This document shows positions 58,226-63,948 of a DNA stretch of 64,000 nt, in pieces. The DNA is from Gammaproteobacteria bacterium (lineage in GTDB: Bacteria; Pseudomonadota; Gammaproteobacteria; Steroidobacterales; Foliamicaceae). The stretch is taken from positions 76,523-140,522 of the forward strand of contig WTGP01000019.1 in the NCBI GenBank assembly GCA_011523505.1, given 5' to 3'. The first letter of the stretch is position 1, and every line of letters starts with the position of its first letter. The notes beneath the pieces are model-generated. The model had not been told where the DNA came from, did not search any database, and saw only the letters and a program-made list of their open reading frames with translations. The translations under genes and the position numbers were made by a program.

Positions 58226-58933
58226 CTATAGCGCCTGAACGAGCTCCGCGAGGCTGGACACGGTGAAATCCGGCAGCACCTCGGCCTCTGGAGCGCGCGC
58301 CGCTCCTTCATCCGCGCCGCCGTACCGGTCCACCCAGGCGGTGCGGATTCCCAGCGCACCGGCTGGTTCTATGTCGTGGAAAAGGCTTTGCGCCGCATGC
58401 AGCAATTCGCTGCCCTGAATCTCCATTTCCGAAAGCCGGGCCAGAAGGAAGCGGAAGTTGCGCGGGTCCGGCTTGTACGAACCGATCTCCTCGGCGGTGC
58501 AAACCAGGTCGAAGCGGATGCCAAGGGCCCGCTCGGTTGCCGCGAAGGACGCCTTGTCCACGTTCGAAAGCACCGCAAGCCGGTAGTGCTCCTGCAGCCG
58601 GGCCAGCGCCTTCGACGTATCCGGAAACGGCGGCCAACGGCGAATCGAGCGGGCGAACCCGCCGGCATCGGCATTGCTTACCGGCAAGTCGAACCTGCGT
58701 CCGATCCTTTGCGCTACCCGGCACAACACCTCGGGATAGGGCAATTCGGGATCGGACGACTGCACCACGGGCTCGGCCTCGGAGAACGCCGCCAGTAATT
58801 CGGCGCGTTCCATTCGTGCACCCCGGCGCCGCGACCACTCCGACAATGCATCGGCAATGCCGCTTTCCCAGTCGATCAGCGTTCCGTAACAGTCAAAGCT
58901 GATGGCCTTGATTCCCATATCGAATTTTTCCAT
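58226..58933 (-). CDS. HAD hydrolase, haloacid dehalogenase type II-like
   Basis: A 235-residue HAD protein. Motif I is SFDCYGTLIDWE (nucleophile Asp14), motif II LSNVDKAS, motif III Lys in SYKPDPRNF, and motif IV LFHDIEPA. The sequence after motif I (DWESGIADAL) is typical of L-2-haloacid dehalogenase type II proteins, which hydrolyse 2-haloacids; many annotated members are untested. The start is ATG 58933, or ATG 58918 five codons later. It heads the operon with MATE and TRAP genes. Confidence 0.87.
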   Translation of the reverse strand: MEKFDMGIKAISFDCYGTLIDWESGIADALSEWSRRRGARMERAELLAAFSEAEPVVQSSDPELPYPEVLCRVAQRIGRRFDLPVSNADAGGFARSIRRWPPFPDTSKALARLQEHYRLAVLSNVDKASFAATERALGIRFDLVCTAEEIGSYKPDPRNFRFLLARLSEMEIQGSELLHAAQSLFHDIEPAGALGIRTAWVDRYGGADEGAARAPEAEVLPDFTVSSLAELVQAL

Positions 58934-59053
58934 TCCCTTCCGGCGGCCAGAAATTGTAGGCGTAGAGCCTCAATTTGCGAGTGGTATGGACAACCTGAGC
59001 GCGTTACTATCGGCATAAGGGCGGCGGCACAATCTGTCCGCATTCGGCTGGAC

Positions 59054-60052
59054 GTGGAGCAAACGAAATTGAACCTGCAAACACTATGGCGAAACATTGA
59101 GCACCGCCTCGACCGCGACCTTCCGCATTGGCAGGACGACATAAAGAAGTTTGGCCAGGTAAAGGCCGTAGAAGAAAGAAGCCAAGGCAGAGCCTGGAGG
59201 GATGACGAGGTCTTTGAGGCCTTGTTGATGGCTGTGTTGTCCGCCCATACGGTTTGGTCAAGAATTGAATCGATTCAGCCCAAGCTAAAGGCGCTGTTTT
59301 CCGGGTTCGGTCTCGAAGCCTACGCAAGTCGGCGGGAAACCGATGTAGTCGAATTATTCGTGCCCTGGTTCCAGGAAAGAAAGGCAGCGTCGCCTTGGCT
59401 CGCGCAAAATCTCGTCAGGCTTATCGACGCTGCCCACATACTCTGGAAGCACAGCAGAATTCGCGGGTCGGCGGAAAGCTACTTTACCGAACTGATGGAG
59501 CAGCATGACCAAGATCCCAAGCAGGTAGCCCTATGTCTGGGCGGATCCGGCAGTAAACACAAACTTCCATCGATTGGCGTCCCGCTTGCTGCGGAAGCGC
59601 TGAAGAATCTCGGCTTTGATGTGGCCAAACCGGACGTGCATGTTTGCCGCGCCATGAACGCCTTCGGTCTGGTTGCATTCAGGCAGGGAAAGAATGGAAA
59701 GCTCCGATGCACCAGCAAGCACAAGCAGTTGGAAGCCATGAAAAAGGTAGAGGAAATCGCCATGGCCGCACGCAAGCCGGTAGCGTATGTTGACAACGCG
59801 ATCTGGATGCTAGGGGCAGAGAAGAAAAGCGGACTGCACCTTACCAACCGAGAGCTTACGGAACTGGCAGGACACAATCCGATTCAGCGCAAGGATCCCA
59901 GCGGCCTTCTGGCACTGCTGGATTCCTGGAAGAAGGACGGAGACGTCGAAGAACAAAAGGAAACGCTCGAGTACCTGATTCACGCTCTGGATGAGAACCG
60001 GCCGGAGGGCTACAAGCTTTTTCCGCCGGAACTCAAGGGCAAGACCTGGTGA
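59054..60052 (+). CDS. HhH-GPD superfamily (DNA glycosylase-like) protein
   Basis: A 332-residue protein starting at GTG. The region 168-205 resembles the helix-hairpin-helix of DNA glycosylases: LPSIGVPLAAEALKNLG followed by KPDVHVCRAMNAFGL. There Asp194 corresponds to the catalytic Asp of the LPGVGPKTA...VDTHVxR pattern. AYVDNAIWMLG (244-254) resembles the following helix. The usual catalytic Lys before the Asp and the iron-sulfur cysteines of EndoIII/MutY are absent, so it would be an AlkA-like monofunctional form or a non-catalytic DNA binder. Base composition is visibly richer in A than the neighbours. Its stop overlaps the PIN gene start (GTGA). Confidence 0.65.
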   Translation: MEQTKLNLQTLWRNIEHRLDRDLPHWQDDIKKFGQVKAVEERSQGRAWRDDEVFEALLMAVLSAHTVWSRIESIQPKLKALFSGFGLEAYASRRETDVVELFVPWFQERKAASPWLAQNLVRLIDAAHILWKHSRIRGSAESYFTELMEQHDQDPKQVALCLGGSGSKHKLPSIGVPLAAEALKNLGFDVAKPDVHVCRAMNAFGLVAFRQGKNGKLRCTSKHKQLEAMKKVEEIAMAARKPVAYVDNAIWMLGAEKKSGLHLTNRELTELAGHNPIQRKDPSGLLALLDSWKKDGDVEEQKETLEYLIHALDENRPEGYKLFPPELKGKTW

Positions 60053-60495
60053 GTCATACGATATTGCTGGACAGCGGCCCGCTCGGTTTGACCACCAGTC
60101 CCAGCGGATCGCCGGCTGCAGTGAATTGCAGGCGATGGCTACTGCAGGTTGCGAGAGACGGCGCAACGATCATTGTGCCGGAGATCGCAGATTACGAAGT
60201 GCGCCGCGAATTGATCCGGGCAAGAAAGCAGGAAGGTCTTGAGCGCCTGAACGCCTTGATTGAGCAACTCGACTACTTGGCAATCACCACCCCGGCAATG
60301 CGGAAGGCGGCAGAGTACTGGGCGCAGGCTCGCCGGCAAGGACGACCGCTGGCAGCGGACGCGGCATTGGATGGCGACGTGATACTCGCAGCGCAAGCCG
60401 CAACGATACGTTCGGCGAAAGTGGTTGTGGCGACAACCAACGTCAAGCATCTTTCAGTATTCGTCGAAGCAAAGTCGTGGCATGAAATCTCGTGA
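60049..60495 (+). CDS. PIN-domain protein (VapC-like ribonuclease fold)
   Basis: A 148-residue PIN-domain protein. The acidic residues are Asp8 in ILLDSGPL, Glu45/Glu50 in VPEIADYEVRREL, Asp104 and Asp108/110 in LAADAALDGD, and the closing ATTNVKHLSVF matches the VapC-type end. PIN proteins are Mg-dependent RNases, often toxins. No small antitoxin gene is next to it; the partner is the upstream HhH-GPD gene, which it overlaps by 4 bases from a GTG start. Like that gene it is A-richer than its surroundings, suggesting joint acquisition. Confidence 0.75.
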   Translation: MSHTILLDSGPLGLTTSPSGSPAAVNCRRWLLQVARDGATIIVPEIADYEVRRELIRARKQEGLERLNALIEQLDYLAITTPAMRKAAEYWAQARRQGRPLAADAALDGDVILAAQAATIRSAKVVVATTNVKHLSVFVEAKSWHEIS

Positions 60496-60540
60496 GAAAT
60501 AGCGTGAGTAGAATCGGGCAGCAAAGACGAGGAATCGATA

Positions 60541-62082
60541 ATGAATGAGCCGTTCACAAACTTTATGCGTGCTCATTCCGGATTGCGGTTAAGCAAGCGG
60601 GAATTGCTCGCGGGGGCGGGAGCGGCGGCGGCACTGGCTCTGTTGCCGCGCATCAGCCGGGCGGCGAGCGAGACCTGGGACCTGATCGTGGTGGGCGGAG
60701 GATCGGCGGGTCTGCCGTGCGCGATCTTCGCGGCCCGGCAGGGCGCGCGGGTGCTGGTAGTGGACCGGGCCCACCGGCTGGGGGGAACGCTGGATCGCTC
60801 GACGGGGCAGATCGCCGCGGCGGGAACGCGTATCCAGGCGGAACAGGGCATCGAGGATTCGCCGGAAGCCCACTTTGACGACATCATGCGCATCAGCCGC
60901 GGCAAGGTGGACGCCGAACTGGCCTGTGTGTTCGTGGGCGAGGCGGCCAGGACGGTGGACTGGCTCTGCGATCACGGGTTCACGCCCCTGCCCGACCACC
61001 CGGTGACCACCGGAGGCCACGAACCGTACCGGGTGCGGCGCTATCAGTGGGCGGCGGGGAACGGGGTGGCGATCCTGAGAGTGCTCCTGCCCGAATTCAT
61101 GGATCTGGCCAGCAAGGGCTCTATCGAATTCCTGATGCGCACCGACGCGAAGGAACTCATTCAGGATGCCGACGGCGCCGTCACGGGCGTGATGGTGGAG
61201 GACGCCCTGGGCCGCAGGATGGACCTGATGGGGCGAAAGGTCGCGATTACCACCGGCGGCGCCGGAGGCAACCCGGAAATGTTCGAGCGGCTGCACGGCG
61301 TTCCGATGTATGCGCGGCTCGCATATCCCTTCAATCTCGGCGGCGGCCTGGAGATGGGCGTGGGCGCCGGCGGCGTTCTGCGGGGTGCGGAACTCTTCAC
61401 GACCTTCTTCGGCATGGTGCTGAACGATTTCAACGTGCCGAGCACGCCGGCCGGAGTCCCGGTCAACAGCTACCCGGAACGGCGCATGCCCTGGGAGGTG
61501 TACGTGAACTCGGCCGGGCAGCGCTTCGTGCGCGAGGACCATCCGAGCGTGGACGAGCGCGAACACGCGCTCCTCGCCCAGGAGAACCATCGCTACTGGA
61601 TGATCTTCGACCAGGAGATCATGGATACGGCGCCCCCGGTGGCGCTGGGTTGGGACCGTGCGCGGCTGGACTTCGCCTTCAGCAAGTATCACTTCTTCTC
61701 GCGCGCCGGCACGCTTGCGGAACTGGCCTTCTGGGCGGGCATCGAAGCGGACGGCCTTGCGGCAGCCGTCGAGCGCTACAACGCCGGACAGGCCGGCGGG
61801 CGCGACCCGGATTTCGGCCGCGAGCACATGCCCCTGCCGGTTCGCAAGCCGCCGTTTTACGCCATTCGCATGCAGGGCACGCAATTGCTCACTTTTGCCG
61901 GCTTGCACGTCAACCCGCAACTCGAGGTGCTGAATCGGGACGGCCGGCCCATTCCCAACCTCTACGCCGCCGGCGAAGTGCTGGGCGCGGGAGCCACCAC
62001 CGGTTTCGGCATCGTCAACGGAATGATGCTGACGCCCGCGCTGGTATTCGGACGCATGATCGGGGAACGGGTCCTGACCTAG
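60541..62082 (+). CDS. Exported FAD-binding oxidoreductase (FAD_binding_2 family), copy 1
   Basis: A 513-residue flavoprotein of the fumarate reductase/3-ketosteroid dehydrogenase-like group. The Rossmann motif VVGGGSAGLPCAIFAA follows a signal region with Lys-Arg (SKREL) and a long Ala-rich core ending ISRA, which looks Tat-like but lacks the Arg pair. The C-terminus has PNLYAAGEVLGAGATTGFG, the family's closing FAD motif. The substrate cannot be told; the usual catalytic Arg/Tyr set was not confirmed. It is about four-fifths identical by eye to the gene at 62407, so they are recent tandem paralogues. GAGGAA precedes the ATG. Confidence 0.85.
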   Translation: MNEPFTNFMRAHSGLRLSKRELLAGAGAAAALALLPRISRAASETWDLIVVGGGSAGLPCAIFAARQGARVLVVDRAHRLGGTLDRSTGQIAAAGTRIQAEQGIEDSPEAHFDDIMRISRGKVDAELACVFVGEAARTVDWLCDHGFTPLPDHPVTTGGHEPYRVRRYQWAAGNGVAILRVLLPEFMDLASKGSIEFLMRTDAKELIQDADGAVTGVMVEDALGRRMDLMGRKVAITTGGAGGNPEMFERLHGVPMYARLAYPFNLGGGLEMGVGAGGVLRGAELFTTFFGMVLNDFNVPSTPAGVPVNSYPERRMPWEVYVNSAGQRFVREDHPSVDEREHALLAQENHRYWMIFDQEIMDTAPPVALGWDRARLDFAFSKYHFFSRAGTLAELAFWAGIEADGLAAAVERYNAGQAGGRDPDFGREHMPLPVRKPPFYAIRMQGTQLLTFAGLHVNPQLEVLNRDGRPIPNLYAAGEVLGAGATTGFGIVNGMMLTPALVFGRMIGERVLT

Positions 62083-62406: not shown

Positions 62407-63948
62407 ATGCGCAACAATTCGTTCGAATTCCTGGCCGAAGCCGGAAACGTGCAAATCAACAAGCGGGAACTGCTCGCCGGCGCGGGCGCGGCGGCGGCGC
62501 TGGCCATGATGCCGCGAATCAGCCGGGCGGCCAGCGAGACCTGGGACCTGATCGTGATCGGCGGAGGCTCGGCAGGACTTCCCTGCGCGATTTTCGCCGC
62601 CCAGCAGGGCGCCCGGGTCCTCGTGGTCGAGCGATCGCACCGCCTCGGCGGAACGCTGGACCGTTCCTCGGGCCAGATAGCGGCCGCCGGCACCCGGCTG
62701 CAGGCCGAACTGGAGATCCAGGATTCGCCCGAAGCGCATTTCGATGACATCATGCGAATCAGCAAGGGCAAGGTCGATACCGACCTGGTCCGGGTCTTCG
62801 TCAATGATGCGGCCAGGACCCTGGACTGGCTGGGCGAGCACGGTTTTACCCCCCTGGACGGCCATCCCGTCAAGTCCGGCGGACACGAGCCCTATCTGAC
62901 CCGGCGCTACCAGTGGGCCGGACAGGCCGGAGTCGCGATCCTCAAGATCCTGCTGCCCCAGTTCCTCGATCTTGCCCGGCAGGGGTCGATCGAGTTCCTG
63001 ATCCGCACCGACGCGCAGGAACTGATACAGGACGATACCGGTGCGGTGAAGGGCGTCATGGTGCGCGATGCGACGGGGCGCAAGATGGACCTGCTGGGCC
63101 GCAAGGTGGCGCTGACCAGCGGCGGCTGCGCGGGCAACCCCGAAATGTTCAGGGACCTGCACGGGGTGCCGCTGTACGCAAGCCTGGCCTATCCCTACAA
63201 CCTGGGCGGGGGCCTGGAGATGGGCGTGGCCGCGGGCGGCACGCTGCGCGGCGCGGAGCTGTTCCAGACCTTCTTCGGCATGGTGCTGAGCGACTTCAAC
63301 GTGCCGAGCACGCCCGCTGGAGTGCCCATCAGCACCGCCCCGGAACGCCGCATGCCCTGGGAGGTGTACGTCAACACCGCCGGGCAGCGCTTCGTGCGCG
63401 AAGACCATCCCAGCGTGGACGCGCGCGAACACTCATTGCTCGCACAGGAAGGCCACCGCTACTGGATCGTGTTCGACCAGGCCATCCGGGACGCGGCGCC
63501 GTCGGTGGTCATGGGCTGGGACAGCGAGCGGGTGGACTGGGCTTTCGACAAGTACCACTTTTTCTCTCGTGCCGATTCCCTGGCCGAGCTGGCCTACTGG
63601 GCCGACATCGACGGCGAGGGACTGGCCGCCTCCATCGGGCGCTACAACTCCGCCCAGGCGAGCGGCCAGGACCCCGACTTCGGCCGCGAGCACATGCCGC
63701 TGCCCCTGGGCAAGCCGCCGTACTACGCCATCCGCATGCAGGGCACCCAGTTGCTTTCCTTTGCCGGCCTGAACGTGAACACCAACCTTGAAGTGCTGAA
63801 CGGGAACGGAGATCCCATCCCCAATCTCTACGCCGCCGGCGAAGTGCTGGGCGCGGGAGCGCTGACCGGCTTCGGCATCACCAACGGGATGCTGCTGACA
63901 CCGGCGCTGGTGTTCGGTCGCATGATCGGGGAACGCGTGTTCGCCTGA
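62407..63948 (+). CDS. Exported FAD-binding oxidoreductase (FAD_binding_2 family), copy 2
   Basis: A 513-residue paralogue of the gene at 60541, with exactly the same length. It has the Lys-Arg signal (NKRELLAGAG), FAD motif VIGGGSAGLPCAIFAA and closing PNLYAAGEVLGAGALTGFG. Differences are spread along the whole protein, so both copies appear functional rather than one being degenerate. The N-terminal 18 residues before KREL differ completely between copies. GGGAGGG lies 9 bases before the ATG, directly after the palindromic element. It is followed after 20 bp by another same-strand gene. Confidence 0.85.
   Translation: MRNNSFEFLAEAGNVQINKRELLAGAGAAAALAMMPRISRAASETWDLIVIGGGSAGLPCAIFAAQQGARVLVVERSHRLGGTLDRSSGQIAAAGTRLQAELEIQDSPEAHFDDIMRISKGKVDTDLVRVFVNDAARTLDWLGEHGFTPLDGHPVKSGGHEPYLTRRYQWAGQAGVAILKILLPQFLDLARQGSIEFLIRTDAQELIQDDTGAVKGVMVRDATGRKMDLLGRKVALTSGGCAGNPEMFRDLHGVPLYASLAYPYNLGGGLEMGVAAGGTLRGAELFQTFFGMVLSDFNVPSTPAGVPISTAPERRMPWEVYVNTAGQRFVREDHPSVDAREHSLLAQEGHRYWIVFDQAIRDAAPSVVMGWDSERVDWAFDKYHFFSRADSLAELAYWADIDGEGLAASIGRYNSAQASGQDPDFGREHMPLPLGKPPYYAIRMQGTQLLSFAGLNVNTNLEVLNGNGDPIPNLYAAGEVLGAGALTGFGITNGMLLTPALVFGRMIGERVFA

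Follow-up and report, generated by a model that had tools for sequence, protein, structure and literature searches.

Why should a gene resembling those of DNA glycosylases overlap the gene of a VapC-like PIN protein, at the place where a toxin-antitoxin operon carries its antitoxin? This question is raised by a locus in a 64,000-nucleotide stretch of gammaproteobacterial DNA (contig WTGP01000019.1), which is referred to here as the window. The original prediction described a plain HhH-GPD protein coupled to a PIN nuclease and proposed a mobile toxin-antitoxin or defense module, in which the HhH protein senses or processes damaged or modified DNA, or replaces the antitoxin. The explanation that we favor, with a probability of about 0.7, is that of a VapBC-type mobile cassette with a composite antitoxin, in which an HhH-GPD head takes the place of the DNA-binding head and would scan DNA, freeing or relocating the PIN protein.

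Organization of the cassette

The cassette is composed of two overlapping ORFs on the forward strand, located at 59054-60052 and 60049-60495, which encode 332 and 148 aa, respectively, and both start with GTG. For the first of them, a TTG at 59069 (327 aa) is a more likely start than the GTG at 59054, because in alignment it coincides with the ATG start of G748 (MNLQTLW...), a copy from the same genus. With this start, also compared with the copies L016 and L013, gene 1 would span 59069-60052 and encode a predicted fusion of an HhH-GPD domain and an antitoxin-like tail (residues are numbered here from the GTG). The stop/start overlap that had been claimed is indeed present: a GTGA at 60049-60052 places the PIN start codon over the stop codon of gene 1, and GGTGA is also found in L006-L008 and L010-L016. 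The gene in the antitoxin position thus lies directly upstream of the PIN gene and overlaps it by GTGA in the window and in ten relatives, an arrangement that is operon-like by sequence.

The pair sits alone, as described. Its neighbors, labeled by sequence appearance, are a HAD-type hydrolase gene on one side (58226-58933, minus strand) and, on the other, a gene for a flavoprotein (60541-62082). The pair is also A-richer than its surroundings, with a GC content of 56% (66.5% in the window) and a GC3 of 0.65 (0.84-0.87 in two downstream genes). The flavoprotein gene is followed in tandem by a paralogue (62407-63948) with a similar N-terminal leader-like segment, and three flavoprotein genes stand in tandem in the same-genus genomes G750, G751 and G753. 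Upstream of gene 1, no promoter, operator palindrome or operator-like inverted repeat was recognized, and antitoxin autoregulation is therefore unproven; no Rfam family was matched.

Pairwise dN/dS values (head, about 0.2; PIN protein, about 0.15), taken where synonymous sites are unsaturated, indicate that both genes are under purifying selection, so that the two-gene unit is not a product of chance. The distances for HhH are correlated with those for PIN (Mantel r = 0.85, p = 4e-4), as expected for co-inherited genes.

The PIN protein and the antitoxin-like tail

Gene 2 (60049-60495, forward strand) codes for a VapC-like PIN protein of 148 aa. It passes the Pfam cut-off for the PIN family (E = 2.8e-6), its AlphaFold model (pLDDT 88) has VapC toxins as top Foldseek matches (best E = 5.7e-5, VapBC11), and residues D8, E45, D108, D110 and N131 are invariant in an alignment of 12 sequences, all of which bears out the original assignment. 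A sequence search of the PDB with the PIN protein returned nothing useful.

The description of gene 1 as a plain HhH-GPD protein overlooked its C-terminal ~50 aa, which resemble an antitoxin tail (residues 282-332, ...LLALLDSWKKDGDVEEQKETLEYLIHALDENRPEGYKLFPPELKGKTW; 59897-60049, forward strand) and are modeled, at low confidence, as two helices. In a tblastn search of plasmids with gene 1, the match was confined to residues 288-332 (60% identity, E = 1e-5) and fell at the C-terminus of a 94-aa Nostoc protein, encoded directly before a PIN "nuclease" that is 54% identical to gene 2. An HMM made from ten tails matched this Nostoc partner with E = 9e-19 and a Pseudanabaena PIN partner with E = 4e-5, values scaled to 100,000 sequences (Z = 1e5) for a searched set of 1,355 ORF fragments. 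These cyanobacterial plasmid pairs (WP_237997114/WP_237997116 in Nostoc sp. UHCC 0870 and WP_281009538/WP_281009537 in Pseudanabaena) share with the cassette the PIN subfamily (54% identity) and a homologous partner tail, but their partners are only 94-117 aa long and have unrelated heads, that of Nostoc being weakly similar to a FitA-like RHH domain (E = 0.019). The PIN partners of Pseudanabaena and Calothrix (L036 1645-2447 and L037 1573-2468) have heads for which no Pfam match reaches cut-off; the relationship of their tails is supported by HMM in Pseudanabaena and by eye only in Calothrix.

Because its tail is homologous to PIN partners whose heads differ, gene 1 resembles an antitoxin whose head has been swapped. 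The proposal that the HhH protein replaces the antitoxin therefore holds for the position of the gene but not for the whole protein, since a recognizable tail (residues ~282-332) is kept and the DNA-binding head alone has been swapped. An internal start that would release a free tail can be rejected, since residues 250-300 contain no conserved in-frame start codon; for this reason, the tail is probably made solely within the fusion protein.

The cassette is similar to type II VapBC systems in its VapC-fold PIN protein, its small operon with the antitoxin gene first, its overlapping genes, its C-terminal antitoxin tail and its mobile distribution, but the small DNA-binding head that characterizes VapBC antitoxins (RHH, AbrB, PHD and similar, or a DUF433-type domain) is not found. 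Its head is instead an HhH-GPD glycosylase fold of ~270 aa, which is why the cassette is classed here as a VapBC variant and not as a standard member. In the survey by Makarova et al. (2009; PMC2701414), the partner families of PIN proteins comprise RHH, AbrB, PHD, DUF433, UPF0175, MerR and others, and terms for HhH or glycosylase are absent from its text. No description of a glycosylase/antitoxin/PIN architecture was found in the literature searched; most subscription papers fall outside that search, and an earlier description is possible.

The HhH-GPD head

The head of gene 1 covers residues ~6-272 (also delimited as ~1-272; 59069-59869, forward strand) and has 14 close homologues. By profile its identity is weak, the Pfam matches to Adenine_glyco (E = 0.003) and HhH-GPD (E = 0.07) both being below cut-off, and NCBIfam returned sub-cut-off matches only on the cassette. 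The assignment of the original prediction is, however, backed by structure: an AlphaFold model made from 11 homologues (mean pLDDT 78.9, with high confidence across most of residues 5-272) has as its best PDB match in Foldseek the archaeal enzyme MjOgg (Ogg of M. jannaschii, 3knt; E = 1.4e-3, probability 1.00, TM 0.70 on the target), with further Ogg entries and those of EndoIII, MutY and TAG ranking behind it. No convincing match came from a library of viral folds.

A KPDVH motif is located at residues 192-196 (59627-59641, forward strand). In the HMMER profile alignment to 3knt, its Asp194 falls on the conserved Asp of "IIDRH" in MjOgg (the family motif being KPDRH), and this residue is invariant in the homologue alignments, as is the surrounding motif. 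At the position of the lyase Lys of MjOgg, gene 1 has Pro177, and the aligned homologues have Pro, Ala or Thr; the 3knt sequence itself has Q there, presumably an inactivating mutation. The roles of both residues, a catalytic-type Asp and a lyase Lys that belongs to bifunctional members only, are those usual in HhH-GPD enzymes. Gene 1 therefore has in common with the HhH-GPD DNA glycosylases (MjOgg, EndoIII, MutY, TAG) the fold and the conserved Asp motif, but it lacks the lyase Lys, is weakly similar to them in sequence, is fused to the tail and shares an operon with a PIN gene. On the model and the alignments, we take the head to be either a monofunctional-type glycosylase-fold domain or a non-catalytic reader.

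Such a head could also be explained in a simpler way, in which the cassette is an ordinary VapBC and the HhH domain is a replacement operator-binding or dimerization head that anchors the antitoxin for autoregulation, with no recognition of lesions. We consider this unlikely, since HhH-GPD folds are, to our knowledge, generally not sequence-specific operator binders, the catalytic-type Asp is invariant together with its motif, and the upstream region offers no operator-like inverted repeat. It would nevertheless agree with the DNA-binding nature of antitoxin heads in general (PMC2701414) and with the Nostoc protein, whose same tail on a weakly RHH-like head implies that head swapping occurs.

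Distribution of the cassette

A total of 84,980 species genomes were scanned with an alignment of the HhH domain (residues 1-275 of the window protein and the Cupriavidus homologue), the tail and the PIN protein being excluded from the query. Apart from Cupriavidus itself, the scan returned the 14 close homologues, 11 of which carry the same tail and, immediately afterwards, the same PIN gene, which is independent evidence because neither was in the query. Conserved pairing in distant genomes, the check that had been named for this module, is thus observed. Head, tail and PIN are all intact in eight of the 14 (L006, L007, L008, L010, L011, L014, L015 and L016); the PIN gene is disrupted in L012 and L013, and L017 has the three parts with frameshifts. 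Tail and PIN are absent from the other three, namely L005 (head only), L009 (head and DUF5655) and L018, a frameshifted head with no tail or PIN match found. Full cassettes occur in metagenome-assembled genomes (MAGs) of Alphaproteobacteria (including Defluviicoccus, Rhodospirillaceae and Rhodobacteraceae), Gammaproteobacteria and Bryobacterales, and heads without a tail in MAGs of Latescibacterota, Bryobacterales and Gemmatimonadales. The cassette is rare: samples taken at class and phylum level (369 and 398 genomes) gave the window's own copy alone.

Frameshifts in some of the MAG copies (L012, L013, L017 and L018) could suggest an artefact, i.e., an antitoxin gene joined to an HhH gene by chance read-through or in assembly. 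The probability of this is negligible, and the artefact is refuted by the independent copies, the identical fusion being found in ten other loci from different assemblies and under purifying selection.

Judging from the sequences, the parts of the cassette are modular, with the HhH domain alone (L005, Cupriavidus) or together with DUF5655 (L009), and the tail on other heads (Nostoc, Pseudanabaena). In L009 (5001-6896), the reading frame of the HhH head continues into a protein of the DUF5655 family (632 aa in total), either because the head has taken another partner or because a stop codon has been lost. The Cupriavidus pinatubonensis homologue is a distant, stand-alone protein encoded on plasmid p1 (L041 6368-14643), ~2 kb from imuA, a Y-family polymerase gene and an error-prone polymerase gene. 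Homologues without tail and PIN, such as L005 and this neighbor of imuA and error-prone polymerase genes, would suit a captured repair gene, whose HhH product repairs bases independently while tail and PIN supply the addiction that keeps it in the genome. We regard this as rather improbable, as the tail stays fused to HhH in different phyla and has no internal start from which it could be made separately, and nothing found here points to independent repair.

Mobility and genomic context

Among nine same-genus genomes, the cassette is present at the HAD-flavoprotein junction in three: the window, G748 and G749, whose contig agrees with that of L016 in length and position. In G747, G750, G751, G753 and G754 the HAD gene adjoins a flavoprotein gene with no cassette between them, and G752 has no HAD match. 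Since the flavoprotein of G747 is a less similar paralogue, the emptiness of the site is clearest in the other four, which gives at least four genomes with an empty site. From this comparison, the acquired cassette would extend approximately from 58934 to 60503, with the left edge especially approximate and the right edge near 60500. Presence and absence do not by themselves separate gain from loss, but low GC and scattered distribution lead us to favor gain within the genus. Unrelated neighbors and same-genus presence/absence indicate that the cassette is mobile and moves horizontally, so that the word "mobile" in the original prediction, which low GC also supports, was well chosen.

Compared with G748 (L035), the tail, the PIN protein and the flavoprotein start (within 59054-60640 of the window) are 89-95% identical at the protein level, versus about 62-66% for the HhH head and 71% for the upstream HAD protein. 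This switch in identity lies close to where head and tail meet, which suggests recombination at this point.

A defense-island or prophage setting finds no support. In the cassettes sampled, the neighbors are unrelated metabolic or housekeeping genes with no defense-island context, searches of viral contigs using three family alignments as well as gene 1 and the PIN protein themselves found no relatives, and no homologue was found in phages. These observations bear on the idea of an anti-phage system with two effectors, in which the HhH domain, as an active glycosylase, removes modified bases of phage DNA, and the PIN protein, held by the tail, serves as another effector or as a back-up arm for abortive infection. 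There is precedent for it in the anti-phage DNA glycosylases Brig1 and Brig3, which act against modified phage DNA and protect from T-even phages (PMC11078745, PMC13160076), and in the PIN proteins DS-3 and DS-5, which act in phage defense (PMC13092281); the fusion of HhH to a DUF5655 protein in L009 would also fit. However, the Brig proteins differ from gene 1 in belonging to the Uracil-DNA-glycosylase superfamily, with no PIN partner reported in the passages on them, the sampled neighbors are not defense genes, and the single PADLOC match on the cassette, to OGG, is weak (E = 6e-4), which makes a two-effector system doubtful. For the composite-antitoxin cassette that we prefer, an anti-phage role is conjectural.

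Proposed mechanism and significance

By analogy with VapBC biology, the tail would wrap the PIN protein and block its active site, and the free PIN protein would cleave RNA (tRNA or rRNA) and halt growth. The HhH head, with its Asp kept and its lyase lysine gone, would scan DNA and bind, and possibly excise, a particular damaged or modified base. Engagement of DNA, or loss of the antitoxin, would then free or relocate the PIN protein, and growth would be arrested in response to DNA lesions or to foreign modified DNA. The toxin-antitoxin part of this explanation is highly probable and much better supported than the sensing part, which derives from the fold and one conserved Asp and is proposed tentatively. 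More specifically, it is possible, at less than even odds, that recognition of a damaged or phage-modified base by the glycosylase-fold head releases the PIN ribonuclease, coupling base status to translation arrest.

In this cassette, the DNA-binding head of an antitoxin appears to have been exchanged for a DNA-repair fold, with the presumed toxin-neutralizing tail retained. The trigger of toxin-antitoxin systems has long been in question, and here it is directly testable, because the family of the head has ligands that are known in kind (damaged or modified bases). If the explanation is true, the status of DNA bases would be linked directly to translation arrest.
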